DNA from: Hyalangium gracile
GTDB lineage: Bacteria; Myxococcota; Myxococcia; Myxococcales; Myxococcaceae
Direction: 5' to 3'
Length of the DNA stretch: 64,000 nucleotides
Assembly (NCBI RefSeq): GCF_020103725.1
Contig: NZ_JAHXBG010000027.1
Location: 62,001 to 126,000 of the forward strand
Shown: in pieces, positions 28,159 through 62,492 of the stretch
How positions within the stretch are numbered: the stretch's first letter is position 1
How the letters are laid out: the number at the start of each line of letters is the position of its first letter
The notes under the pieces: generated by a model
What the model was told of the DNA's origin: nothing
The model's input: the letters and a program-made list of their open reading frames with translations, nothing else
Databases searched by the model: none
Program-made: the position numbers and the translations under genes

Positions 28159-28186
28159 TTGAATTGTTCTGTTCGAAACGGATATT
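28159..28186 (+). promoter_or_regulatory. Possible sigma-70-type promoter for the cytochrome operon
   Basis: TTGAAT (28159-28164) and GATATT (28181-28186) are separated by 16 bases inside the AT-rich stretch. Each matches four of six bases of the housekeeping consensus. Transcription would begin near 28193, giving a leader of about 135 bases that contains the three hairpins at 28211-28308. The match is modest, and myxobacterial promoters often diverge. Confidence 0.35.
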
Positions 28187-28210
28187 CTTTTTATGGCTCG
28201 AAAATGACTC

Positions 28211-28308
28211 TTCCGGTGAAAGCCGGAAATGATGAACCTCTGGTAAGCTCAGATTAGTAGAGCAAACAGGGGACATAACAGAAAACCGGAGTGCCCTCTC
28301 ACTCCGGT
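28211..28308 (+). promoter_or_regulatory. Structured 5' leader of the cytochrome gene, unclassified
   Basis: Three stems lie in order. First, TTCCGG/CCGGAA (28211-28216 with 28223-28228). Second, CCTCTG/CAGGGG (28237-28242 with 28267-28272), enclosing a GCTC/GAGC stem (28247-28250 with 28260-28263). Third, a perfect 8-bp stem ACCGGAGT/ACTCCGGT (28285-28292 with 28301-28308), which ends ten bases before the AAGGAGGGG ribosome-binding site at 28316. The nested arrangement with conserved-looking A-rich joints (AAAC, GAAA) is riboswitch-like. I could not fit it to c-di-GMP-I/II, cobalamin, SAM, glycine or other classes known to me. The third stem could gate translation, or act as an anti-terminator or transcript stabiliser. 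Confidence 0.5.
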
Positions 28309-28329: not shown

Positions 28330-30170
28330 ATGCGTGAGACGACCGAGACACTGGCAACGAAGTTCGAGACCACCCATCGGGTGGGGTTGCCGGGCGTCGG
28401 ACTCCTGCTCGCCGCTCTTGCCGCCTTTGCTTCCGCCTGTGGTCCCCAGGACGAGGCGGGCACCCCGGACGAGCTGAGCATCCAGGCGCAGGCCATCGAT
28501 GACGATGACGACAGCGATGACCGCCGCCGTCCCCCCCGTCGTCGGGCGGCAACGCGGTGGGCATCTCGCTCCTGGTGGAGGACGGCACGGCCACCCCGCT
28601 GCGCCTGAAGGCCGGCCAGGCCTTCTTCATCAACCAGATCGATCTGCGCGCGACGGCCACCTCCACTCACGACGAGGGCGTGCGTGGGCTGGACCGGACG
28701 GGCGACTTCAGCGGCCTGGGCTGGGGCGGCCTGCGCCTGGCCGAGGAGTCCTTCGAGCTGCTGGCCGGGCCGGACGGCTACAAGCGCCGCCGCTTCTACC
28801 GGGACGCCGCGTGGATGGACGTGCCCAGCTACTTCATGGTGGAGCAGGTGGACGCCCGCGGCCACCTCGTTGCCCTGCCCATCATCCTGAACGCGGGCTC
28901 CAACGATAAGCGCCGCGAGGACGACGACTTCTTCGTCCGCCGCTTCCGCGCCATCCAGTGGACGTACGGCTGCGTGAGCGAGTCGAGCTGCGTCGGCGCC
29001 AGCAACTTCCTGCAGGAGGCGCTGGTGGAGCTGCGCAACGCGCGCACCCCCTGCAAGAGCAAGAACTTCACCCTCCACCCGAGCACCAAGGCGCTGCGCC
29101 TGCGCTGGTCCCTGCGCCCGGTGGCCCCCTACACCATCCCCGTGGAGCAGGTGGCCCAGCCGGCCTACGCCTACGGCTTCGACATCGACGTGAACGCCAT
29201 CACGCCTCCGCGTGCGGATGGCACCTACGCGCCGGGTACGTCCATCCAGTTCCGCCTCACCCTGAAGGACGGCGCCGGCCGCCGCCTGCACCCCCAGGGC
29301 TCGCTTCCCACGTATAATGAGGTCATCTCCGGCTCCGTCGAGTCGGGCATCCAGTACTACCAGGCGTTCTTCGATCCGACGGCGACCTACTACCGGCGCA
29401 AGCACCGCGAGCGCATGCTGATGACGCAGATCATCGGACCGGCTCAGCTCATCAAGCCCATCCGCTCCATCATCGACATGGAGGGGTTCCTGGGCCCCAA
29501 CGACGTGCAGACGCTGGGCACGTTCGAGCGCGACGGGGTGTTCTCCCAGTTCCAGACCTTCCCCCCCGGCAACGATCTGTTCGGCGGCGCGTTCGATCCG
29601 GCCCACCTGGGCTGGGCCGCTCCGGTGAGCGACGCGTGGACCTATGACATCCCCGCCAACGCCGTGCCGGGCACCTATCTGGTCACCGTCAAGGGCCGCC
29701 GCACCTTCATGGGCGAGGACCTGCCGGCCAGCAAGACCATCGAGATCCAGGTCGGCACCCGGCAGCGCACCACCGCGCCGCTGACCACCGGCCCCTGCAA
29801 CAGCTGCCACAGCCAGGGCGGCGAGCTGAGCGCCGTGCTCCACGGCAACGACAACCGCGCCGCCTGCTCCGGCTGCCACACGCCGCTGGGCTTCGAGCTC
29901 GAGGGTCCCATCTTCGTGCGCGTGCACTTCATCCACTCGCGCTCGGACCGCTTCGACGCCGAGCTCGCCCAGTGCAGCAAGTGCCACCTGAGCAAGGAGA
30001 GCATCCAGCGCACCAGCAAGGCTGCATGTTTCTCCTGCCACAAGACCTGGTCCCGGCAGCACGAGGCCCAGTTCGGCCCGATCAAGAACATGTATGTGGG
30101 TGGTGGACGGGAGTCCTTCCAGCAGTGCACCAGTACCTGCCACACTACGCACCCGAAAAGCGGCCTCTAG
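28330..30170 (+). CDS. Multiheme c-type cytochrome lipoprotein, interrupted by a -1 frameshift at a C7 tract
   Basis: The signal peptide and lipobox (LLLAALAAFASAC) are read from ATG 28330, after an AAGGAGGGG ribosome-binding site. After the Asp-rich stretch the frame changes at C7 (28531-28537): one added C would join the DRRRPP end directly to GGNAVGISLLVEDG and give about 614 residues ending at 30170. The body has a beta-rich domain (residues about 80-450), then heme c sites CNSCH, CSGCH, CSKCH and CFSCH, and a fifth CTSTCH with three spacer residues instead of two. The protein is expected on the outer membrane or in the periplasm, with hemes attached after Sec export. As sequenced, only a short 93-residue product from the ATG or an unexported body from 28557 could be made. 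It heads an operon with FIST, kinase and receiver genes. Confidence 0.8.
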
Positions 30171-30199
30171 CCGCCCCCAACCTATTCAGGAGGTCCTCC

Positions 30200-31363
30200 A
30201 TGGCACAGGTGAAGATGCAGACGGCTCGAACCTCGGAGAAGGAGCCCGTCGCGGCCGCGGAGGACCTGCTGAAACAGCTGGGCGGTTTCCAGCCCAAGCT
30301 GGTCATGTTGTTCGCCTCGCGTGAGCGCGACCAGAGCGCGCTCAACCGCGCCGTGCGCGAGCGCCTGCCCAAGGGCTGCCGCCTGCTGGGCGCCACCACC
30401 GCCGGAGAGCTGGACAACACCGGCATCTACTCTGGCCAGGTGGTCATCGGCGCCCTGGCCGGTGACTTCGACGTGGGCCTGGGCATGGGCGTGGGCCTGA
30501 GCTCCGACGCGGTGTCCGCCGGCGCCACCGCCATCCGCAAGGCCTGCGAGGAGCTGGGCGTGCGGCAGGCGGACCTGGATCCGCGCAAGTACGTGGGCCT
30601 GGTGATCGACGACGGCTTCCGCTACAAGAAGGAGGAGCTGCTGCTCGGCATCCTCGAGAAGAACCAGACGCTGGTGCTCGTGGGCGGCGGCGCCAGCGAC
30701 GACAACCGCGACATGAGCAAGCAGTCCGCGCAGCTGCACGTGGACGGCGAGGTGGCCACCGACGCCGTCGTCGTCGGCCTGTTCCGCACCAACGCGCCCT
30801 TCGCCGCCCTGCGCTCGCACTGGTACATCCCCACCGGCGAGCGCATGACCATCACCAAGGTCGACGAGACGCACACGCGCGCGCTGGAGATCGACGGCAA
30901 GCCGGCGGCCCTGCGCTACGCGGACCTGCTCGGGTGCCAGCCGGCGGAGCTGGAGTTCGGCACCCCGAAGGGTTTCGCCGTCCGCCCGACCGCACTCCGA
31001 GTGGGGCGCGAGTACTTCATCCGCGCGCCCTGGAAGCCCATCCTCGAGGACAACTCCATTCTTTTCGCCAACTTGCTGGAGGAGGGCTCGGAGCTGGAGC
31101 TGATGAAGATCGGCGACATGGCCGGAATGACGAAAACCTTCTTCACCGAGGAGCTGCCCAGGCGGGTACACAACCCCCAGGCCGCCCTCCTGTTTCACTG
31201 CGGTGGGAGAATGTGGTACGCGAGCGCTACAGGTAAGGTGCCGGAGCTAGCCCAGACCTTGCGCTCCGCGCCCACGGCGGCTGGAATGAATGTGCACTTC
31301 GAGATCTACTCGGGGTTCCACATCAACACCACGCTGACCGTGCTGGCGTTCGGATCCAACTGA
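30200..31363 (+). CDS. FIST-domain sensor protein (NosP-like arrangement)
   Basis: The 387-residue protein has FIST N (residues about 30-225) and FIST C (about 230-375) domains without any transmitter. Typical stretches are KLVMLFASRERDQSALN, LLGATTAGELDNTG, LVLVGGGASDDNR and, in the C half, ALLFHCGGR. FIST proteins bind small ligands; the NosP subgroup binds heme and reports nitric oxide to a histidine kinase encoded next to it. The AGGAGG ribosome-binding site (30188-30193) lies six bases before ATG 30200. It follows the cytochrome gene by 29 bases and overlaps the hybrid kinase by one base (A of ATGA), so sensor and kinase are coupled. Heme binding is not demonstrated; I see no certain axial histidine assignment. 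Confidence 0.9.
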   Translation: MAQVKMQTARTSEKEPVAAAEDLLKQLGGFQPKLVMLFASRERDQSALNRAVRERLPKGCRLLGATTAGELDNTGIYSGQVVIGALAGDFDVGLGMGVGLSSDAVSAGATAIRKACEELGVRQADLDPRKYVGLVIDDGFRYKKEELLLGILEKNQTLVLVGGGASDDNRDMSKQSAQLHVDGEVATDAVVVGLFRTNAPFAALRSHWYIPTGERMTITKVDETHTRALEIDGKPAALRYADLLGCQPAELEFGTPKGFAVRPTALRVGREYFIRAPWKPILEDNSILFANLLEEGSELELMKIGDMAGMTKTFFTEELPRRVHNPQAALLFHCGGRMWYASATGKVPELAQTLRSAPTAAGMNVHFEIYSGFHINTTLTVLAFGSN

Positions 31364-34314
31364 TGAGCCTCTCCCCCACCGCGCAAACCGAAAGCCCAAC
31401 CCACCGCATCCTCCTCCTGACCAGCGAGCGTGAGACCGAACAGGTCCAGAGCGCGCTGCGCCGCTCGGCGCCGCAGGCCCAGGTGGAGCGTGTCACCAGC
31501 GCCGACGCGCTCACCACGGCGCTGGCCAGGCCGTGGGCGCTGGCGGTGATCGGCACCGAGGCCCCTGGGCTGTCACTGGCCCAGGTGCAGGCGGTGTGGA
31601 AGGACAAGGGTGGCACCACGCCCTTCGTGGTGCTGTCGCAGAAGTGGAGCGACGACACGCTGGCGGCCGCCACGCAGGCCGGCGCGTGCGACTACCTCAC
31701 CGAGGAGCAGCTGGGGCGGCTGGGGCTGGTGCTCGCGCGCGAGCAGCGCATGCGCTCCAGCCAGAACCGCCACGAGTCCTCCGAGGAGGAGCTCAAGCAG
31801 ACCAACTGGCTGCTCAACACCATCATCGACAGCCTGCCCTTCATCCTCTTCGTGAAGGATGCCAGGGAGCTGCGGCTCAAGGTGGCCAACAAGACGTTCG
31901 CCGACTCCTTCAAGGTCACCAAGGACTGGCTCATCGGGAAGCTGGACCACGACTACTTCCCCCAGGACCAGGCCGACGCCTTCGTGAAGGATGATCGCGA
32001 GGTCATCGCCACCAAGCGCATCAAGGTCTTCGACGAGGTGGCGCGCGTCGTGGATCAGGACCGCCGCTTCGGCACGCGCAAGGTGCCGCTCATGGACGAG
32101 AAGGGCGAGGTCCGCTTCGTCATGGGCGTCACGGAGGACATCACCGAGCGCCGCCAGAGCGAGGACGTGCTGCGCGCGTCCAAGGCGGAGCTGGAGGCGG
32201 CCAACAAGAAGCTGGCCGAGAGCCTCGAGGAGCTCAAGCGCTCGCGCTCCGTGTCCGCCCGCTCGCTGGCCAGCTACCAGCAGCGCGCCCTGCAGATGGA
32301 GATCATCCGTCAGCAGAACGAGGACCTGGACAGGCTCGCCACGGAGCTGGCCATCGCCAAGCGCAACGAGGAGGAGCGCGCCCGCGAGGCCGAGGCCGCC
32401 GCCCGCCTCAAGAGCGAGCTCCTGGCCAACTTCAGCCATGAAATCAGAACGCCCCTCAACGGCATCATCGGCTACTGCGACCTGCTGATGCGCGAGGAGG
32501 GCAGCCGGCTCACCGCGCACGGCCGGCGCGACCTGAACGTCGTCAAGACGAACGCCAAGACGCTGCTGGCGCTGATCAACGACATCCTGGACCTGTCCAA
32601 GATCGAAGCGGGCCGCGTGGAGGTGGTCGTCGAGCGCGTGGACGTGCAGGAGCTGGCCGAGGAGTGCCTGGCCACGGTGCGCGAGTACCTGAAGGGCAAG
32701 GACGTCGCGCTGACGATGAACATCGAGGAGCGCGCGCGCTACCTGCAGACGGACGCGCTGAAGCTGCGGCAGGTGATGCTCAACCTGTTGAGCAACGCGG
32801 CCAAGTTCACCGAGTCCGGCGAGGTGGCGCTGGGGACCAGGGCCGAGGGCAACGAGCTGGTCATGACGGTGGAGGACACCGGCGTGGGCATCCCGGCCGA
32901 CCAGGTGGACTACATCTTCGAGAAGTTCCGCCAGGTGGACGGCTCCACCACGCGCAAGGTGGGCGGCACGGGCCTGGGCCTGGCCATCGTGCGCGAGCTG
33001 AGCAAGGTGCTGGGCGGCAACGTCACCGTCACCAGCGTGCTGGGCCGCGGCTCCACCTTCACGGTGCGGCTGGCCGGCGTGCTCGAGAGCGCCGGGCCCA
33101 TGCCGTCGGCGCCCTCGGCCAACGCCGCGCCGGAGCAGGAGCCGGTGGCGGTGGAGGAGGTGGCCGCGAAGCTGGCGCCGCTGGCCGCCGGCAGCACGGT
33201 GCTGGTGGTGGACGATGATCCGCTCATGCAGCAGCTGGTGGTGGGCCAGCTGGAGCCCGCCGGCTTCAAGGTCATCCCCGCCGGTGATGGCGTGATGGCG
33301 CTGCGGCTGGCGCGCGAGGCGAAGCCCCAGGCCATCATCCTGGACATCCACCTGCCCCGGCTGGACGGCTGGTCCGTGCTCAGCCAACTCAAGAGCGAGC
33401 CGGGCCTGGCCAGCATCCCCGTCATCCTCGTGTCCGTGGAGGAGCAGCGCGCGCGCGGCTACTCGCTGGGCGCGTGCGAGTACCTGGTGAAGCCGGTGGA
33501 GCCGGACCGCCTGGTCGAGGTGGTGACGCGCACCCTGGGCAACGCGGCCCTGGCCAGCGGCGAGGTGCTGGTGGTGGACGACGACTCCAGCACGCGCGAG
33601 CTCGTCAGCCGCAGCCTGCGCCGCGCCGGCTTCTCCACCTCCGAGGCCCACAGCGGCGAGGACGCCCTGCTCAAGGCGCGCGTGTCGCCGCCGGTGCTCG
33701 TGGTGCTGGACCTGATGATGCCCAACCTCGACGGCTTCGAGGTGCTGCGGCGGCTGCGCTCGGAGAACCTCCACATGCCGGTGGTGGTGCTCACCGGCAA
33801 GGAGCTGGACGTGCGCGAGCAGTCCACGCTGCGCGACGGGCTGATCGCCTTCGTGCGCAAGGGCGGCCACGCCATCGACGAGGTGATTGGCCAGGCCAAG
33901 ACGCTGCTGCTCCAGAAGCGCGCGGCCGTCAACGGCCGGCCGCCCCGCATCCTCTACGTGGAGGACAACCCGCAGAACCGCGACATCGTCCGCCGCTACC
34001 TGGGCAACAACTACGAGCTGCTCGAGGCCGAGGACGGTGAGCACGGGCTGGAGCGCGCCCAGCGCGACACGCCGGACCTGGTGCTGATGGACCTGTCGCT
34101 GCCGCGCGTGGACGGCTGGGAGGCCACGCGCCGCATCCGCGCGCTGCCGGCGGCCATCTCCAAGGTCCCCGTCATCGCCGTCACCGCCCACGCCGGCCGC
34201 GAGTACCAGGACAAGGCCCTGGCCGCCGGCTGCACCGCCTACCTCACCAAGCCCCTGGATCGGGACCAGCTGCTGGATACCATCCGCAAGCACCTGGGGA
34301 AGAGCCATGCCTGA
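31363..34314 (+). CDS. Hybrid histidine kinase with PAS input and three receiver domains
   Basis: The 983-residue protein lacks membrane helices. Residues 10-120 resemble a receiver without the usual acidic residues (TQAGACDYLTEEQ). A PAS domain at about 145-270 (NTIIDSLPFILFVKDARELR, ending MGVTEDITERRQ) and a coiled coil lead to the HisKA domain, with the phosphorylated His in NFSHEIRTPLNG near 360. The HATPase domain follows (N-box NLLSNAAKF, G1 DTGVGIP, GGTGLGLAI). Three receivers begin at about 610 (VLVVDDDPLM), 735 (VLVVDDDSSTR) and 860 (ILYVEDNPQNR); the first and third have clear D-x-H/S-L-P phosphosites and the second DLMMP. The soluble kinase presumably takes its cue from the coupled FIST protein and passes phosphoryl groups to the receiver at 34307, with which it overlaps by eight bases. 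Confidence 0.95.
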   Translation: MSLSPTAQTESPTHRILLLTSERETEQVQSALRRSAPQAQVERVTSADALTTALARPWALAVIGTEAPGLSLAQVQAVWKDKGGTTPFVVLSQKWSDDTLAAATQAGACDYLTEEQLGRLGLVLAREQRMRSSQNRHESSEEELKQTNWLLNTIIDSLPFILFVKDARELRLKVANKTFADSFKVTKDWLIGKLDHDYFPQDQADAFVKDDREVIATKRIKVFDEVARVVDQDRRFGTRKVPLMDEKGEVRFVMGVTEDITERRQSEDVLRASKAELEAANKKLAESLEELKRSRSVSARSLASYQQRALQMEIIRQQNEDLDRLATELAIAKRNEEERAREAEAAARLKSELLANFSHEIRTPLNGIIGYCDLLMREEGSRLTAHGRRDLNVVKTNAKTLLALINDILDLSKIEAGRVEVVVERVDVQELAEECLATVREYLKGKDVALTMNIEERARYLQTDALKLRQVMLNLLSNAAKFTESGEVALGTRAEGNELVMTVEDTGVGIPADQVDYIFEKFRQVDGSTTRKVGGTGLGLAIVRELSKVLGGNVTVTSVLGRGSTFTVRLAGVLESAGPMPSAPSANAAPEQEPVAVEEVAAKLAPLAAGSTVLVVDDDPLMQQLVVGQLEPAGFKVIPAGDGVMALRLAREAKPQAIILDIHLPRLDGWSVLSQLKSEPGLASIPVILVSVEEQRARGYSLGACEYLVKPVEPDRLVEVVTRTLGNAALASGEVLVVDDDSSTRELVSRSLRRAGFSTSEAHSGEDALLKARVSPPVLVVLDLMMPNLDGFEVLRRLRSENLHMPVVVLTGKELDVREQSTLRDGLIAFVRKGGHAIDEVIGQAKTLLLQKRAAVNGRPPRILYVEDNPQNRDIVRRYLGNNYELLEAEDGEHGLERAQRDTPDLVLMDLSLPRVDGWEATRRIRALPAAISKVPVIAVTAHAGREYQDKALAAGCTAYLTKPLDRDQLLDTIRKHLGKSHA

Positions 34315-34711
34315 GGGGGTGCTCCGCGTGCTGGTCGTGGATGACGACCCGGATCTGCTGGATCTGGTGGCGCGCTCGCTGCGCGCCTACGGCATCGAGG
34401 TGGAGACGCACCTGTCCGCATTGGGCGTCTCCACCCGCATCCGCGAGTCCAGGCCGGACGTGGTCCTCATCGACGTGAACTTCCCCTCCCTCAAGGGAGA
34501 CAAGGTGGTGTCGCTGGCGCGCTCCCAGGCGCCAGCGGGGACCAAGTTCATCCTCTATTCGGCCTCGGATGAGTCCCAGCTTCGCGCGCTCGCCAGCACC
34601 TCGGGCGCGGATGGCTACCTCTCCAAAAGCGTCCAGGGAGCCGAGCTTGCGCAGAAGATCGAATCCTTCCGCCACAAGCCTCCCCGCCCCACGCCCGTGC
34701 CGCTGGTCTGA
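34307..34711 (+). CDS. Stand-alone receiver (single-domain response regulator)
   Basis: The 134-residue protein is a receiver only: acidic pocket VLVVDDDPDLL, phosphosite VLIDVNFPSLKG, Thr/Ser position FILYSASDES and Lys in LSKSVQGAEL (Ser replaces the usual Pro after Lys). The C-terminal tail is a short Pro-rich piece with no output domain. It overlaps the hybrid kinase gene by eight bases and is its likely phosphoryl acceptor. It is a close paralogue of the receiver at 49496-49924: the stretches GTKFILYSASDES and SGADGY(L/I)SKSVQGA are nearly identical. How it acts without an output domain, by protein binding or as a phosphate sink, is unknown. Confidence 0.93.
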   Translation: MPEGVLRVLVVDDDPDLLDLVARSLRAYGIEVETHLSALGVSTRIRESRPDVVLIDVNFPSLKGDKVVSLARSQAPAGTKFILYSASDESQLRALASTSGADGYLSKSVQGAELAQKIESFRHKPPRPTPVPLV

Positions 34712-34782: not shown

Positions 34783-36054
34783 TTGCGGACCCCTGACTAC
34801 AGTGAGGCTGAAAAGTTACGCCGCCAACTGGAGTCCCCCATGTTCAACCCGCTGCTGAAGAAGTGGGTGGGCAAGGGGGAGCTCGACTACGAGGTGTATC
34901 TGAAGACGGGCACGCTGCTGCACCTGCAGACGCCGTCGGAGGAGCTCGTGCACCACGACGAGCTGCTCTTCCAGGTGACACACCAGGCGCAGGAGCTGTG
35001 GCTCAAGCTCATCTCCCAGGAGGCGGTGGAGGTGGTGGCGGAGATGGATGGCGATCTGCTGTGGCCGGCCACGGGGCGGCTGGAGCGGATGCTGCGCACC
35101 ATGCGCTGCCTGGTGGCGGAGATGAACATCCTGGAGACGATGACGCCGGACACGTATCAAATCATCCGGCGCAGCCTGGGCAACGGCAGCGGGCAGGAGT
35201 CTCCGGGGTACAACGCCATGCGGGTGTCGGCGGAGGCCATGGAGGCGGCGCTGGAGCGGGTGCTGCGGCGGCGCAACCTGCGGCTGGTGGACGTCTACAA
35301 GGTCGGCTCGTTCGGCGCGGAGGACCTCAAGCGCATCTGCGAGCAGTTCGTGGACCTGGACGAGCTGTTCCAGACGTGGCTGTACACGCACTACCAGATG
35401 GTGCGCCGCATCATCGGCGTGGACCGCTCCATCAAGGCGCTGGACGGACTGCCGACGCAGGTGCTGGCGGGCCGCATGACGCTGCCGCTCTTCCGCAAGC
35501 TGTGGGAGGTGCGCGTGGAGATGACGAACGCGTGGCGGCGTGACGGTGGCTACGCGCCGGGCACGCGGCGGGCCTCGGGCACGCACCCGGCGGTGCCTCC
35601 CGCGGCGCACGCTCCGAACGCCTCGGGGCTGATCGCCGAGGCGGTGAGCGCCCACGCCGCGAGCGTTCCCCCTCCGGCTGCGTTCGCTCCCCCGGAGCCC
35701 TCGCCGCTGACGGCCTCCGCGCAGGCCCTGGCGGCGGCCGCAGCCGTCGTGGATCCCGCCTCCGCTCCCAGCGAGCCTGCCGTGGCGGGTGTGCCCGCCG
35801 TGGTGAGCATGGCCCCGCCGGAGGCGCCCGTGGACGATCCGTGGTCCCGGCCCGAGCCGCCCCGCCGCGGGCAGGCCACCCAGGGCGCGCCCCCGCCCGT
35901 GGCGCCCGCGGCTCCACCCGAGGTGGACCCGAACGATCCGTGGTCCAAGCCCGAGCCGCCCACCTCGCGCCGCGCCGCGCAGGCCCAGGAGGAAGCGAAC
36001 GCGGGTGGCGGTCCGCAGTGGTCCCGCCCGCCGAAGGACCAAGGACCGTTCTGA
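34783..36054 (+). CDS. kynA: Tryptophan 2,3-dioxygenase with a Pro/Ala-rich C-terminal extension
   Basis: Residues 1-262 of the 423-residue protein are a full tryptophan 2,3-dioxygenase, the heme enzyme that opens the indole ring of L-tryptophan to N-formylkynurenine. Recognisable parts are YEVYLKTGTLLHLQTP, HHDELLFQVTHQAQELWLKL (with the distal His and the substrate-binding region), ESPGYNAMR and WLYTHYQMVRRIIGV (proximal His). The start is TTG 34783, seven bases after GGAGGG; using the first ATG would remove conserved N-terminal residues. The last 160 residues are low-complexity, with two copies of D-P-W-S-(R/K)-P-E-P-P and a related QWSRPPKDQ near the end, an unusual tail for this family. 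The kynureninase-like gene follows after one base, and a methyltransferase after that. Confidence 0.95.
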   Translation: MRTPDYSEAEKLRRQLESPMFNPLLKKWVGKGELDYEVYLKTGTLLHLQTPSEELVHHDELLFQVTHQAQELWLKLISQEAVEVVAEMDGDLLWPATGRLERMLRTMRCLVAEMNILETMTPDTYQIIRRSLGNGSGQESPGYNAMRVSAEAMEAALERVLRRRNLRLVDVYKVGSFGAEDLKRICEQFVDLDELFQTWLYTHYQMVRRIIGVDRSIKALDGLPTQVLAGRMTLPLFRKLWEVRVEMTNAWRRDGGYAPGTRRASGTHPAVPPAAHAPNASGLIAEAVSAHAASVPPPAAFAPPEPSPLTASAQALAAAAAVVDPASAPSEPAVAGVPAVVSMAPPEAPVDDPWSRPEPPRRGQATQGAPPPVAPAAPPEVDPNDPWSKPEPPTSRRAAQAQEEANAGGGPQWSRPPKDQGPF

Positions 36055-36055
36055 C

Positions 36056-37198
36056 ATGGACACGACGCTCGCGGCGATCCGCGCCGAGTTTCCGCTGCTG
36101 GAGAAGTGCACCTACCTCAACAGCAACTCCACGGGCGCGTTCCCGCGGGGCATGGACGGGGTGTTGCAGCGCTACTCGCAGACGCTGCAGAACTGGCGGG
36201 ACGAGGCGTGGGAGGGCTGGTGGGCGGACTGGCTCGGCTACATGGACGCGGTGGCGCGCTTCATCGGCGGGCCGGTCGGCTCGGTGGTGACGGACACCAA
36301 CCTCACGACGCTGCTGGGCCGCCTGGCCACGTGCTTCGACTACCAGGGCGCGCGCAACCGCGTGGTGATGACGGACCTGGAGTTCCCCACCGTGCCCTTC
36401 CTGTGGAAGGGCTTCGGGCGCTACGGCGCGCAGGCGGTGGTGGTGCCCTCCGAGGGCGGGAGGATGGACGAGGAGCGGCTGTGCGCGGCCATCGATGAGC
36501 GCACGCTGCTGGTGAGCATCGCCCACGCCAGCTTCGCCACGGGCGCGCTGGTGGACCTGGCGCCCGTCATCCGGCGCGCGCGAGAGGTGGGAGCGCTGGT
36601 CATCGTGGACGCGTACCAGTCGGTGGGCGCGGTGCCCATCGACGTGGAGGCGCTGGGCGTGGACTTCCTGCTGGGGGGCGCGCACAAGTGGATGTGCGGC
36701 TCCACGGAGAGCGCCTTCCTGTACGTGCGGCCGGCGCTGCTGCCCACGCTGCGGCCGGCGGCCACGGGGTGGATCGCCGGGGAGAACCCGCTCAACTTCG
36801 AGCCGGCGCGCGACTGGGCGAGCACGGCGCGGCGGCTGGCGAGCGGCACGCCGGCGGTGCTGCCCTCGCAGCTGTCGCGGGTGGGGCTGGAGCTGCTGGC
36901 GACGGTGGGGATGCCCACCATCCGCACGCACTCGCTGCGGTGCACGGCGCGGGTGATGGAGCGCGCGGAGGAGGCGGGCCTCACGGTGGTGACGCCGCGG
37001 CAGGACGCCCGTCGCGGCGGCGTGGTGGCGCTGCGCTTCCAGGGAGACGCGGAGGTGACGCGCCGGATGGTGGCGCGGGGCTTCATCTGCAGCTACCGGG
37101 GCGCGCTGCGCGTGGCGCCGCACTTCTACAACACGCTGGAGGAAGTGGACCGCTTCATGGACGCCCTGGTGGCGGAGGCTCGGAGGGAGAAGGCATGA
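36056..37198 (+). CDS. Kynureninase-like PLP enzyme (aminotransferase class V fold)
   Basis: The 380-residue protein is a fold-type I PLP enzyme of the class V group. The cofactor Lys is in LGGAHKWMCGSTES near residue 225, and the Asp that binds the pyridine N is in LVIVDAYQSVGAVP. The N-terminal LNSNSTGAFPRG and the DLEFPTVPFLW segment are typical of kynureninase and related lyases, which cleave kynurenine to anthranilate and alanine. Cysteine desulfurase-like activity is the main alternative. Placement one base after tryptophan 2,3-dioxygenase and overlapping the methyltransferase (ATGA) favours kynurenine as substrate. A formamidase for the intermediate step is not in the window and must be elsewhere. 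Confidence 0.8.
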   Translation: MDTTLAAIRAEFPLLEKCTYLNSNSTGAFPRGMDGVLQRYSQTLQNWRDEAWEGWWADWLGYMDAVARFIGGPVGSVVTDTNLTTLLGRLATCFDYQGARNRVVMTDLEFPTVPFLWKGFGRYGAQAVVVPSEGGRMDEERLCAAIDERTLLVSIAHASFATGALVDLAPVIRRAREVGALVIVDAYQSVGAVPIDVEALGVDFLLGGAHKWMCGSTESAFLYVRPALLPTLRPAATGWIAGENPLNFEPARDWASTARRLASGTPAVLPSQLSRVGLELLATVGMPTIRTHSLRCTARVMERAEEAGLTVVTPRQDARRGGVVALRFQGDAEVTRRMVARGFICSYRGALRVAPHFYNTLEEVDRFMDALVAEARREKA

Positions 37199-38217
37199 GC
37201 AGCCTGGAGTTTTCACCCCGCGCGCTGCTGCACCTGCTCTTCAACGGTGCGCGGGCCATCGACGTGGTGGAGACGGCGTACCGGCTGGGGCTGCTGGAGG
37301 CGCTGGAGGCCGGCCCGGTGACGCTGGGGGCGCTGAGCCAGAAGTACGGCATGGTGCCCGGGCGGCTCTACAAGTTCCTGGACTGCCTGGAGAGCCTGGG
37401 GCTGGTGAAGCGCGAGCAGACGACGGACGCGCTCGTCGAGGCGCGCTACACGGCGGTGCCGGGCCTGCGCGCGGCGGCCGAGAAGGTGGTGGGGCCGCAG
37501 TCGCTGGAGCGGGACAGGGAGAAGTACGCCTGGAAGGCGCTGCACGGCCACCTGCCGGAGGTGCTGCGCGGGGAGAAGAGCATGCCCCGGGAGTCCTTCG
37601 ACTGGCCGCCGCAGACGCCCGAGCAGGTGGCGGGCTTCGAGGCGAGCATGGCCGCGGGGCTGGGCCCCATCCTCGAGGTGTTCCGCACGCACGGCCCCAG
37701 GCTGTGGGGCGCGGGGCAGAGGCTGCTGGAGGTGGGCGGCGGGGACGGCTCGCTGGCGGCGCACCTGCTGGAGCAGCACCCCGGGCTGAAGGTGGACGTG
37801 TACAACCTGCCGGCCACCGAGGCGCTGGTGGCGCGCACGCGGGAGAAGCACGGCCTGGGCGCGCGGCTGGGCTTCGTGGGTGGGGACTTCCTGAAGGAGC
37901 CGCTGCCCAAGGGGTATGACGCGCTCTCCTTCGTGCGGGTGCTGCACGACTGGCCGGCGGAGACGGCGCGCGAGCTGATGAAGGCGGCGTACGCGGCGCT
38001 GCCCTCGGGCGGGCGGCTCCTCATCTGCGAGGAGTTCCGGACGCCCGAGCGGCTGACGGCGCAGTTCTTCTGGTCCTACTTCCTCATGGGCGTGGACAGC
38101 TGCGTGAGCCGGCTGCGCGAGGTGGAGTACTACCTGCAGGCGCTGAAGGAGCTGGGCTTCCGGGCGCCCGAGGTGCTGCCGGGCCCGTTCGAGCTGGTGG
38201 TGGCCACGAAGCCCTGA
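37195..38217 (+). CDS. SAM-dependent O-methyltransferase (acetylserotonin/hydroxyindole type)
   Basis: The 340-residue protein has an N-terminal winged-helix dimerisation domain (FNGARAIDVVETAYRLGLLE, LYKFLDCLESLGLVKR) and a C-terminal class I methyltransferase fold. SAM motif I is RLLEVGGGDGSLAAHLL near 175, and the acidic loop after beta-2 is VDVYNLPAT. FVRVLHDWPAE contains the His-Asp pair used as general base in plant and bacterial O-methyltransferases of this family, and GGRLLICEEFRTP follows. It overlaps the kynureninase-like gene by four bases and closes the three-gene operon; a strong hairpin follows. The substrate is probably a tryptophan-derived aromatic such as a hydroxylated anthranilate or kynurenine product, by context only. 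Confidence 0.9.
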   Translation: MSSLEFSPRALLHLLFNGARAIDVVETAYRLGLLEALEAGPVTLGALSQKYGMVPGRLYKFLDCLESLGLVKREQTTDALVEARYTAVPGLRAAAEKVVGPQSLERDREKYAWKALHGHLPEVLRGEKSMPRESFDWPPQTPEQVAGFEASMAAGLGPILEVFRTHGPRLWGAGQRLLEVGGGDGSLAAHLLEQHPGLKVDVYNLPATEALVARTREKHGLGARLGFVGGDFLKEPLPKGYDALSFVRVLHDWPAETARELMKAAYAALPSGGRLLICEEFRTPERLTAQFFWSYFLMGVDSCVSRLREVEYYLQALKELGFRAPEVLPGPFELVVATKP

Positions 38218-49495: not shown

Positions 49496-49924
49496 ATGTC
49501 GGAAACCAAGATCCGCGTCCTCGTCGTAGACGACGACCAGGATCAACTCGTGCTCGCTGAACGTTCTCTTTCCTCCTACGGCTTCGATGTGAGGACGCAT
49601 CGGTCCTCTCTGGGCGTCTCCAACCTGGTGCGTTCGGTAGCGCCGGACCTGGTGCTGCTCGACGTGAACATCCCCGCGCTGAGCGGAGACAAGGTGCTGT
49701 CGTTGGCGCGCGCGCAAGCGCCGCTGGGCACCAAGTTCATCCTCTACTCGGCCTCGGATGAGTCCAAGCTGCGCTCGCTGGCGCTGTCGTCCGGCGCGGA
49801 CGGCTACATCTCCAAGAGCGTGCAGGGCGCGGACCTGGCCAAGAAGCTGACGGACCTCTACAAGCGAGGCCGCTCGGCGACCAGTCCCACGTCCAGCACG
49901 ACCAATCAGGCCATCAACAAGTAG
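49496..49924 (+). CDS. Stand-alone receiver, paralogue of the one at 34307
   Basis: The 142-residue protein is a single receiver: VLVVDDDQDQL acidic pocket, phosphosite LVLLDVNIPALSG, FILYSASDES, Lys in ISKSVQGADL. Its tail is a Ser/Thr-rich extension of about 18 residues. It is very similar to the receiver at 34307-34711 in all core segments, differing mostly in helices 1 and 5. The two may have arisen by duplication and compete for similar kinases. It is a single-gene unit; the gene at 49975 converges. The nearest kinase is the coupled one at 46760, and the CheB-like gene diverges from it. Confidence 0.93.
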   Translation: MSETKIRVLVVDDDQDQLVLAERSLSSYGFDVRTHRSSLGVSNLVRSVAPDLVLLDVNIPALSGDKVLSLARAQAPLGTKFILYSASDESKLRSLALSSGADGYISKSVQGADLAKKLTDLYKRGRSATSPTSSTTNQAINK

Positions 49925-60608: not shown

Positions 60609-62492
60609 TCAGCGCCCCATCGCTTCCGAGGAAGGCGGCGTGCTGCGCAGCCGGGCCCGCACCGTGCGCCAGCGCTTGAGCGCCTCCAGGTGGAGCGGAT
60701 CCACCCGCAGCGCCGCCTCGTACGAGCGCAACGCCTCCGCGAGCTTGCCCTGCGCGGCGAACGCATCCCCCGTGGCCAGGTGCAGCGTCGCGTGCCCCTC
60801 CGGCACGCGGTTGCGCGCCAGGAAGCGCCGGCGGCACTCCTCCAGCGCCGTCACCGTCAGCCCCGCCGACAGGCACCGCTGCACGCCCTCCAGGTTGCGC
60901 AGCTCCGCGTCATACTCCGCCCGGCGCTCCGGGTGACTCAGCACCTGGAACGCCTCCGCCACACGCTCCAGCGCTCGCTCCGCCCGCGCCCGCTGGCTCG
61001 GAGCCAGCGTCAGCTTCAGCAGCGGCTCGAGCGCCAGCCGCGCCTCGCGCGCGCTCACCCGCACCGTGTCGAAGTCCGCGTCCCACGTCGTCCCCAGCAC
61101 CCGGTAGTGGTCCCCCAGCAGCCGTCCCCCGAAGCGCTGCAGCACCGCCTCCGCCCGCTCGTCCTCCCGAACGTTGCTCACCGGTGGCGTCTGTGGCGCC
61201 ACCCGCTCGCCCGCCAGCAGCTTCTCGAAGGCCTCCTGGAAGCCCGGCGCCGTGTCTCGCAGCTGCACCCCGAAGCCCGGCGTCATGTGCCACTGATGCG
61301 CCTGCTCCGGAGACACGTGCCGCACCACCTGCCCCGTGCACGCCAGCTCTCCCCCCGGCAGCCGCAGCAGCAGCCCCACGTCCACCAGCAGCGGTGGAGG
61401 CGGCGACTGCGTGTGCAGGAACAGCCCCGTGCGCCCCACCCGCTCGCAGCGCAGCTCCGCCGACACCGGCTCGCCGCTCACCCGCACCCGCGCCGTGAAG
61501 GACGGCGGCGGCTCCCGCTTCGGCGCCAGCGCCCCTCGCAGCGCCTCCCGCAGCTCCCCGGCCGAGGCGAAGCGATCCTCCGGCCGCTTGGCCATCGCCC
61601 GCGCCAGCACCTGGGAGAGCGCTCGCGGCACCTGGGGCCGCACCTCGTGCGCCAGGCGCGGCGCCTTCAGCAGGTGCGCCATCAGCACCTCCGCCGGATG
61701 GTTCCCCGTGAAGGGCATCCGCCCCGTCACCAGGAAGTAGCCCATCACCCCCACCGCGTACAGGTCCGTGCGCGCGTCCACCGGCAGGCCGCCGCACTGC
61801 TCGGGCGACATGAACTCCGGCGTGCCCAGCACCGCCCCATCCTGCGTGGGCGTCATCCCCGTCGGGTACGTCAGCAGCTTGGCGATGCCGAAATCCAGCA
61901 GCTTCACCCGGTGCTTGCCGTGGCTGCCCGGCACCAGGAACACGTTGGCCGGCTTGAGGTCCCGGTGCACCACGCCGTGCGCGTGCGCCGCCCCCAGCGC
62001 GTCACACACCTGCGAGAGCAGATCCACCGCCAGCGCCAGCTCCAGCGGCCCCTGCGCGAACGAGGCCAGGCTCTGCCCCTCCAGGTGCTCCATCACCAGG
62101 TACGGGCGCCCCTCCCGCATGTCCAGGTCATAGAGCGTGACGACGTTCTCGTGCTGGATCAGCGTCAGCGTGCGCGCCTCGGAGAGGAAGCGGGACACCA
62201 GCCGTCTGTCCCTCGCCAGGTGCGCGTGCAGCACCTTCACCGCCACGCGCTTCTGGATGAGCGCATGCTCGGCCAGCCACACCGTGCCCATGCCGCCGCG
62301 CCCCAGCTCGCGCACCACCTGGAAGCTGCCGAACTTCTGCCCGACGAAGGAGTCCCCCTCCTCCGCCAGCTCCGGGACCGGGCTCGGCGCGCGGCGCGGC
62401 TCCACCGCCCCACCGCTCTGACGGATGAGCGTCGGGCACTCGGCCTCGAGGTGCGGACTCGCGCAGTTGCAGACGGACGGGGACGCTTGCAA
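60609..62492 (-). CDS. Ser/Thr kinase fused to PilZ-like, J-like and TPR regions
   Basis: The 627-residue protein starts at TTG 62492 (weak ribosome-binding site). Residues 1-35 hold a small Cys cluster (VCNCASPHLEAEC). Residues 55-315 are an intact kinase: LGRGGMGTVWLAEHA, RVAVKVL, VVHRDLKPANVFLV, DFGIAK, TPEFMSPEQ. Residues about 330-430 are PilZ-like (FTARVRVSGEPVSAELRC, RTGLFLHTQSPPPPLLVDVG, GQVVRHVSPEQ); the typical R-x-x-x-R is not clear, so c-di-GMP binding is uncertain. Residues 459-530 resemble a J domain (GDHYRVLGTTWDADFDTVRV, FQVLSHPERRAEYDAEL) but lack HPD. Residues 540-610 are TPR-like (ATGDAFAAQGKLAEALRSYE). This combined layout is unusual. It converges on the multi-PAS kinase; the partial histidine kinase on the same strand lies 271 bases upstream. 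Confidence 0.85.
   Translation of the reverse strand: MQASPSVCNCASPHLEAECPTLIRQSGGAVEPRRAPSPVPELAEEGDSFVGQKFGSFQVVRELGRGGMGTVWLAEHALIQKRVAVKVLHAHLARDRRLVSRFLSEARTLTLIQHENVVTLYDLDMREGRPYLVMEHLEGQSLASFAQGPLELALAVDLLSQVCDALGAAHAHGVVHRDLKPANVFLVPGSHGKHRVKLLDFGIAKLLTYPTGMTPTQDGAVLGTPEFMSPEQCGGLPVDARTDLYAVGVMGYFLVTGRMPFTGNHPAEVLMAHLLKAPRLAHEVRPQVPRALSQVLARAMAKRPEDRFASAGELREALRGALAPKREPPPSFTARVRVSGEPVSAELRCERVGRTGLFLHTQSPPPPLLVDVGLLLRLPGGELACTGQVVRHVSPEQAHQWHMTPGFGVQLRDTAPGFQEAFEKLLAGERVAPQTPPVSNVREDERAEAVLQRFGGRLLGDHYRVLGTTWDADFDTVRVSAREARLALEPLLKLTLAPSQRARAERALERVAEAFQVLSHPERRAEYDAELRNLEGVQRCLSAGLTVTALEECRRRFLARNRVPEGHATLHLATGDAFAAQGKLAEALRSYEAALRVDPLHLEALKRWRTVRARLRSTPPSSEAMGR

Follow-up and report, generated by a model that had tools for sequence, protein, structure and literature searches.

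A conserved myxobacterial gene set for a pentaheme lipoprotein, a non-NosP FIST protein, a three-receiver hybrid kinase and a free receiver

Introduction

Four consecutive genes of Hyalangium gracile encode a multiheme cytochrome (CYT), a FIST protein, a hybrid histidine kinase and a receiver. The question raised by this locus is what the FIST protein senses and whether the cytochrome contributes to the signal. Characterised FIST proteins act on adjacent soluble kinases (PMC12570481; PMC8846402; PMC12997753). An earlier note on this DNA had read the locus as a redox or nitric oxide (NO) circuit in which the exported cytochrome and a FIST protein of the NosP type both feed the kinase. Its operon, exported multiheme protein, cytoplasmic FIST protein and soluble hybrid kinase were retained in the present analysis, but the NosP assignment and the cytochrome input to the kinase were not. 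The gene set provides a testable case of what a non-NosP FIST protein senses, in a genetically tractable group, and it also invites an explanation for the very close tie between a soluble kinase and a multiheme electron-transfer lipoprotein. It further carries a caution: a FIST protein beside a kinase is not automatically a nitric oxide sensor.

Sequences and ortholog searches

The stretch of DNA analysed (the window) comprised 64,000 nt, positions 62,001–126,000 of contig NZ_JAHXBG010000027.1 in the H. gracile assembly GCF_020103725.1, and coordinates refer to it unless another locus is named. The genome is 11.7 Mb in size, and its closest named relative on FIST comparison is Hyalangium versicolor, whose FIST protein is 94% identical. 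A FIST-ortholog profile and a cytochrome-ortholog profile were searched against 195 Myxococcota genomes and high-scoring orthologs were counted.

Organization and conservation of the locus

Open reading frames and Pfam placed the four genes on the + strand in the order cytochrome, FIST, hybrid kinase and receiver, with gaps of 29, −1 and −8 bases. The positions, gaps and gene types of the earlier note were thus reproduced with two corrections, a frame break in CYT and an extra receiver in the kinase. The four genes would form one operon read as a single transcript. None of them encodes a transmembrane protein.

Orthologs of CYT and of the FIST protein were found in identical sets of 65 genomes each. 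In each of the 65, CYT is followed directly, after 25–70 bp, by the FIST gene on the same strand. A kinase gene and a receiver gene follow in each of the 27 distinct loci with enough sequence, and in all loci read the kinase gene overlaps the FIST gene or adjoins its end. The neighbourhood is therefore conserved in myxobacteria, as the earlier reading had called for, and the gene order is not unique to the source genome, since 65 of 65 genomes keep it. Chance adjacency, or an order peculiar to one genome, was ruled out on the same count.

The four-gene set is spread over Myxococcaceae/Archangiaceae, including a Myxococcus xanthus strain (L010), and occurs in one genome of another family of the order (locus L067). 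The order in L067 is cytochrome-FIST-kinase-receiver-kinase-receiver, i.e. kinase and receiver are duplicated together. This tandem duplication 3′ of the FIST gene (L067, 7857–13745) has a first kinase copy that seems frame-split near its third receiver. Extra FIST copies, about 70% identical and without cytochrome or operon kinase, were found in three large Myxococcus-group genomes (L068, L069 and L070); in the L070 paralog, the otherwise conserved His374 is Asn.

The cytochrome

The CYT gene (28330–30170, + strand) starts at ATG 28330 and encodes a signal with a lipobox (ASAC), as do many of its orthologs; its product is a predicted exported pentaheme lipoprotein. The gene is frame-broken near 28521–28540. 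The frame opened at ATG 28330 closes at 28608 and the heme part lies in a second frame, open from 28521 to 30170. The break falls within a C7 run of a C-rich, variable linker. Because CYT stands in one frame in all relatives holding the full gene, a sequencing or assembly error or a recent mutation is the preferred cause. Programmed frameshifting and phase variation were disfavoured, given that the C-run sits in a variable linker and that the relatives are in frame.

The pentaheme domain (29796–30143, + strand) contains four CXXCH motifs (CNSCH, CSGCH, CSKCH and CFSCH) followed by one CX3CH motif (CTSTCH), all conserved in 29 aligned sequences. In these sequences, His 441, 469, 472 and 544, which lie outside the motifs, are invariant and His 514 is retained in at least 90%. 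From the His counts, candidate second ligands may be proposed for all five hemes. Bis-His hemes are usually electron carriers, not gas binders. The N-terminal part was modelled as beta-rich, with a pLDDT mostly about 90 over residues 11–260; the heme domain gave no confident model. Foldseek matches listed were generic Ig-like folds with low TM-scores and MtrC was absent among them. With Pfam, weak matches below the cut-off were obtained to Cytochrom_c3_2 and Mtrc-MtrF_II-IV.

Extra CYT copies without FIST or kinase genes are present in four genomes of the Hyalangium clade (L071–L074). The L071 copy has genes for ceramidase, RecT and trigger factor beside it. Nearly all of the genomes with CYT also encode a more distant pentaheme relative, whose gene, in the loci examined, has further c-type cytochrome genes nearby. 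The H. gracile genome itself carries such a relative on contig C7 (L117, 6256–10512), with another cytochrome c in the same locus. Because of the candidate second His on five hemes and the solo copies elsewhere, CYT is more likely to be co-expressed for electron transfer than to be an input to the kinase.

The step in the earlier note by which the exported cytochrome feeds the kinase was accordingly dropped: the hemes are candidate bis-His hemes, solo paralogs exist and a membrane-spanning intermediary is missing. As the four genes encode no membrane-spanning protein, no signal path from the cytochrome to the cytoplasmic kinase is visible. A related scheme, in which a pentaheme surface lipoprotein and a new, non-NosP class of FIST protein together control how far a three-receiver hybrid kinase is phosphorylated, according to electron status across the envelope, appears very improbable. 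If it were true, a phosphorelay in the cytoplasm would register extracellular or periplasmic electron flow with no membrane receptor devoted to the task.

The FIST protein

The FIST gene (30200–31363, + strand) encodes a cytoplasmic protein of 387 aa with FIST N (PF08495, E 1.1e-33) and FIST_C (PF10442, E 1.7e-12), both above cut-off. It thus has the single-protein architecture of NosP and, as with NosP, its gene stands beside that of a kinase in all loci read. The earlier note had taken it for a protein of the NosP type, but it scored 162.6 bits against the NosP model (NCBIfam NF041558), for which the curated equivalog cut-off is 450. This cut-off was passed by none of the 195 Myxococcota genomes; a Variovorax control passed it with 461.8 bits. 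In the tree, the operon FIST proteins formed their own 11-row clade on a long branch of 1.51, away from every characterised FIST protein, and the NosP clade (100/98 support) excluded them. The residues C65, R226 and D333 (window numbering), invariant in the NosP clade, are replaced in the operon FIST protein, and Y366, likewise invariant there, is lost in most copies. NosP identity was ruled out on score, tree and clade residues.

The general FIST_C residues C334, E368 and H374-x-N376 are retained in the operon FIST copies. These C, E, H and N residues are not diagnostic of NosP or of heme binding, because FIST proteins that do not belong to the NosP clade have them as well. A search of solved structures with the operon FIST protein gave zero matches up to E=1, and the fold model, built from a too-shallow alignment, had a mean pLDDT of 47.5. 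As the protein falls outside NosP by sequence, heme or NO sensing is not implied. By this analysis, the case that it is a NosP is lowered, and the case that it may work like one, as an auxiliary cytoplasmic sensor of the adjacent kinase, is not. Since the protein is distant from all characterised FIST proteins, the NosP mode of action is transferred by architecture and not by orthology.

These results bear on the circuit of the earlier note, in which redox state or NO is sensed across the envelope by the exported multiheme protein and the FIST protein together. The strict linkage of CYT and FIST in 65 of 65 genomes speaks for it, as does the binding of heme and reporting of NO by FIST proteins of the NosP clade (PMC12570481). 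However, the operon FIST protein is not a member of that clade, kinase and FIST protein are soluble in an operon without a membrane protein, the candidate second His ligands of CYT fit electron transfer better than gas binding, and the same genome encodes a separate H-NOX. The circuit is therefore held to be decidedly unlikely.

A heme-supply circuit was also considered, in which the FIST protein senses labile heme and tunes the expression or assembly of heme-rich partners (CYT and the heme-dependent tryptophan dioxygenase encoded next to the operon). The FIST protein CdpA of V. cholerae has been reported to be heme-responsive (PMC8846402), the title of a paper cited in PMC12570481 says the same of B. 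thailandensis NosP, and heme proteins are abundant in the product set. Yet the NosP-clade residues C65, R226, D333 and Y366 are not retained as such, and this circuit is considered unlikely.

The hybrid kinase and the free receiver

The kinase gene (31363–34314, + strand) encodes a soluble hybrid histidine kinase of 983 aa (PF08448, PF00512, PF02518 and three PF00072). Its domains are a degenerate N-terminal receiver-like domain without the conserved phospho-Asp (31402–31737), identified by sequence reading and alignment and silent in Pfam; a PAS_4 domain (31828–32157); HisKA, with the H-box FSHEIRTPL, and HATPase_c (32410–33072); and three C-terminal receivers with Asp 661, 783 and 910 (33196–34284). 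The H-box, the ATP boxes and all three phospho-Asp are conserved in 33 aligned rows, as expected of a hybrid histidine kinase. The description of a soluble hybrid kinase with three receivers thus stood for the three predicted to be phosphorylatable, but it had missed the fourth, degenerate one at the N-terminus. Against the NahK/ErcS model NF041832, the kinase scored 212.8 bits over the kinase-receiver core, below the cut-off of 400. The degenerate receiver is missing from the L067 kinase and PAS seems missing from another (L078). Either N-terminal domain would therefore be dispensable, and the FIST protein remains the constant candidate sensor.

The last gene (34307–34711, + strand) encodes a free-standing receiver of 134 aa (PF00072) with a conserved Asp56 and no output domain. 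Another stand-alone receiver, 68% identical to it, is encoded at 49496–49849, and many Myxococcus genomes have a comparable paralog about 4 kb 3′ of the operon.

Promoter, leader and downstream genes

A sigma70-like promoter, TTGAAT-N18-TATTCT, was predicted 5′ of CYT (28159–28188, + strand). It is conserved in the alignment: a GTTGAA-type box and an ATTC/AATC-type box occur at similar spacing in the window and in 23 aligned relatives. The predicted 5′ leader contains the inverted repeat CTTCCGG-TGAAA-GCCGGAA (28210–28228, + strand), and a hairpin of the CCGG-GAAA-CCGG type recurs in many relatives. With Rfam, the leader gave a chance-level match (E 4.9) in the window and none at the gathering cut-off in seven relatives. 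On this result, a riboswitch or other known RNA in the conserved leader was rejected.

Immediately downstream of the receiver, on the + strand, Pfam identified genes for a tryptophan 2,3-dioxygenase (34840–36054), a kynureninase (36056–37198) and an O-methyltransferase (37195–38217). These kynurenine-pathway genes (34840–38217) are possibly an extension of the operon, or neighbours. The dioxygenase gene lies 3′ of the receiver gene on the same strand in 21 of the 27 loci, with a gap of about 75–270 bp, and is absent from the other six despite the retained four-gene set. Kynureninase and methyltransferase genes likewise lie beside the L067 cluster. The conserved adjacency suggests a link of the FIST operon with the kynurenine pathway. 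Literature searches linking FIST proteins with amino-acid metabolism, and on kynurenine genes in myxobacteria, yielded nothing relevant.

The FIST protein might accordingly bind tryptophan or a kynurenine-pathway metabolite, with the operon belonging to the dioxygenase-kynureninase-methyltransferase genes downstream. The dioxygenase gene just 3′ of the receiver gene in most loci and the gene pair beside the L067 cluster speak for this reading, and so does the original proposal, reportedly made by Borziak and Zhulin in 2007, that FIST domains bind small ligands, amino acids among them. The six loci without a dioxygenase gene and the width of the gap weigh against it, and this form of sensing is regarded as quite unlikely.

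Proposed mechanism

The favoured model is a FIST-controlled kinase-receiver phosphorelay with a co-expressed electron-transfer lipoprotein, to which we give a probability of roughly 0.6. From the conserved promoter, one transcript would supply both an exported lipoprotein that combines Ig-like domains with an electron-transfer domain of five hemes, and a cytoplasmic signalling unit of three proteins. The FIST protein would take up a small ligand and dock on the adjacent soluble hybrid kinase, thereby shifting the balance between its kinase and phosphatase activities in the manner of NosP with NosK/NahK. Candidate ligands are heme, NO and an amino-acid or kynurenine-type metabolite. From the kinase, phosphate would pass to its own three receivers and then to the free receiver, probably with an Hpt protein from another locus as intermediate; the free receiver may act by protein contact. 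CYT would serve electron transfer in the same physiological programme, being co-expressed and not an input to the kinase. We infer the FIST-kinase contact, the kinase-receiver pairing and the role of the cytochrome.

The favoured model is supported by the CYT-FIST linkage in 65/65 genomes with identical genome sets and by the full set in 27/27 loci; by the conserved catalytic and phosphoacceptor residues of kinase and receiver; by the one conserved promoter 5′ of all four genes; by the action of characterised FIST proteins on neighbouring soluble kinases; and by the solo CYT paralogs without FIST or kinase in four genomes. Counting against it, the strict CYT-FIST linkage exceeds what mere co-expression needs.

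Comparison with known systems

The earlier note knew of no described system with this set. A description of the exact four genes was not found in the literature searched, nor was any record of 'FIST domain' together with Myxococcus, but a FIST protein and a soluble hybrid kinase near a cytochrome c are known from the Pseudomonas ped/exa cluster, where the NosP-NahK homologs (ErcS′; PP_2663-PedS1) sit with cytochrome c550 (PMC12997753). As in the present operon, a cytoplasmic FIST protein is there co-cistronic with a soluble hybrid kinase, and c-type-cytochrome-linked periplasmic electron transfer (PedF/ExaB) is encoded in the cluster (PMC12997753). Unlike here, the FIST protein of Pseudomonas is a genuine NosP, and the cytochrome, encoded several genes away, is the c550 that serves PQQ alcohol oxidation. 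In the myxobacterial set, a pentaheme lipoprotein comes first in the operon and a free receiver last, the kinase scores 213 against the NahK/ErcS cut-off of 400, and no PQQ enzyme genes were seen near the operon. NosP-like FIST genes that adjoin kinase genes, with PedF (cytochrome c-550) genes or genes associated with PQQ alcohol dehydrogenase in the vicinity, were also noted on four plasmids of Alphaproteobacteria (L112–L115; Sphingobium, Paracoccus, Sinorhizobium and a Rhodobacteraceae strain).

With MtrC/OmcA, CYT shares a lipoprotein signal, a beta-rich N-terminal part and a pentaheme domain with a weak match to PF22113. That match reached 21.1 bits, below the cut-off of 30, which places CYT outside the MtrC/OmcA family; unlike those proteins, it has five hemes, not ten, and its last motif is CX3CH. 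An extracellular electron conduit of the MtrCAB type was rejected, as the genome gave no family match to an MtrB/PioB-type porin (PF11854).

In the NosP-NosK-NosR operon of Burkholderia pseudomallei, the FIST protein inhibits autophosphorylation of the kinase (PMC12570481). Both operons combine a FIST protein, a soluble kinase and a response regulator. NosR bears an HD-GYP output, though a degenerate one, and the published description of NosK includes no receivers, whereas the present operon has a three-receiver hybrid kinase, an output-less receiver and a cytochrome. A FIST protein and a soluble hybrid kinase near cytochrome c genes are therefore already known; what is new is that the operon opens with a pentaheme lipoprotein gene, that its FIST protein is of a non-NosP class, and that a three-receiver kinase and a free receiver complete it.
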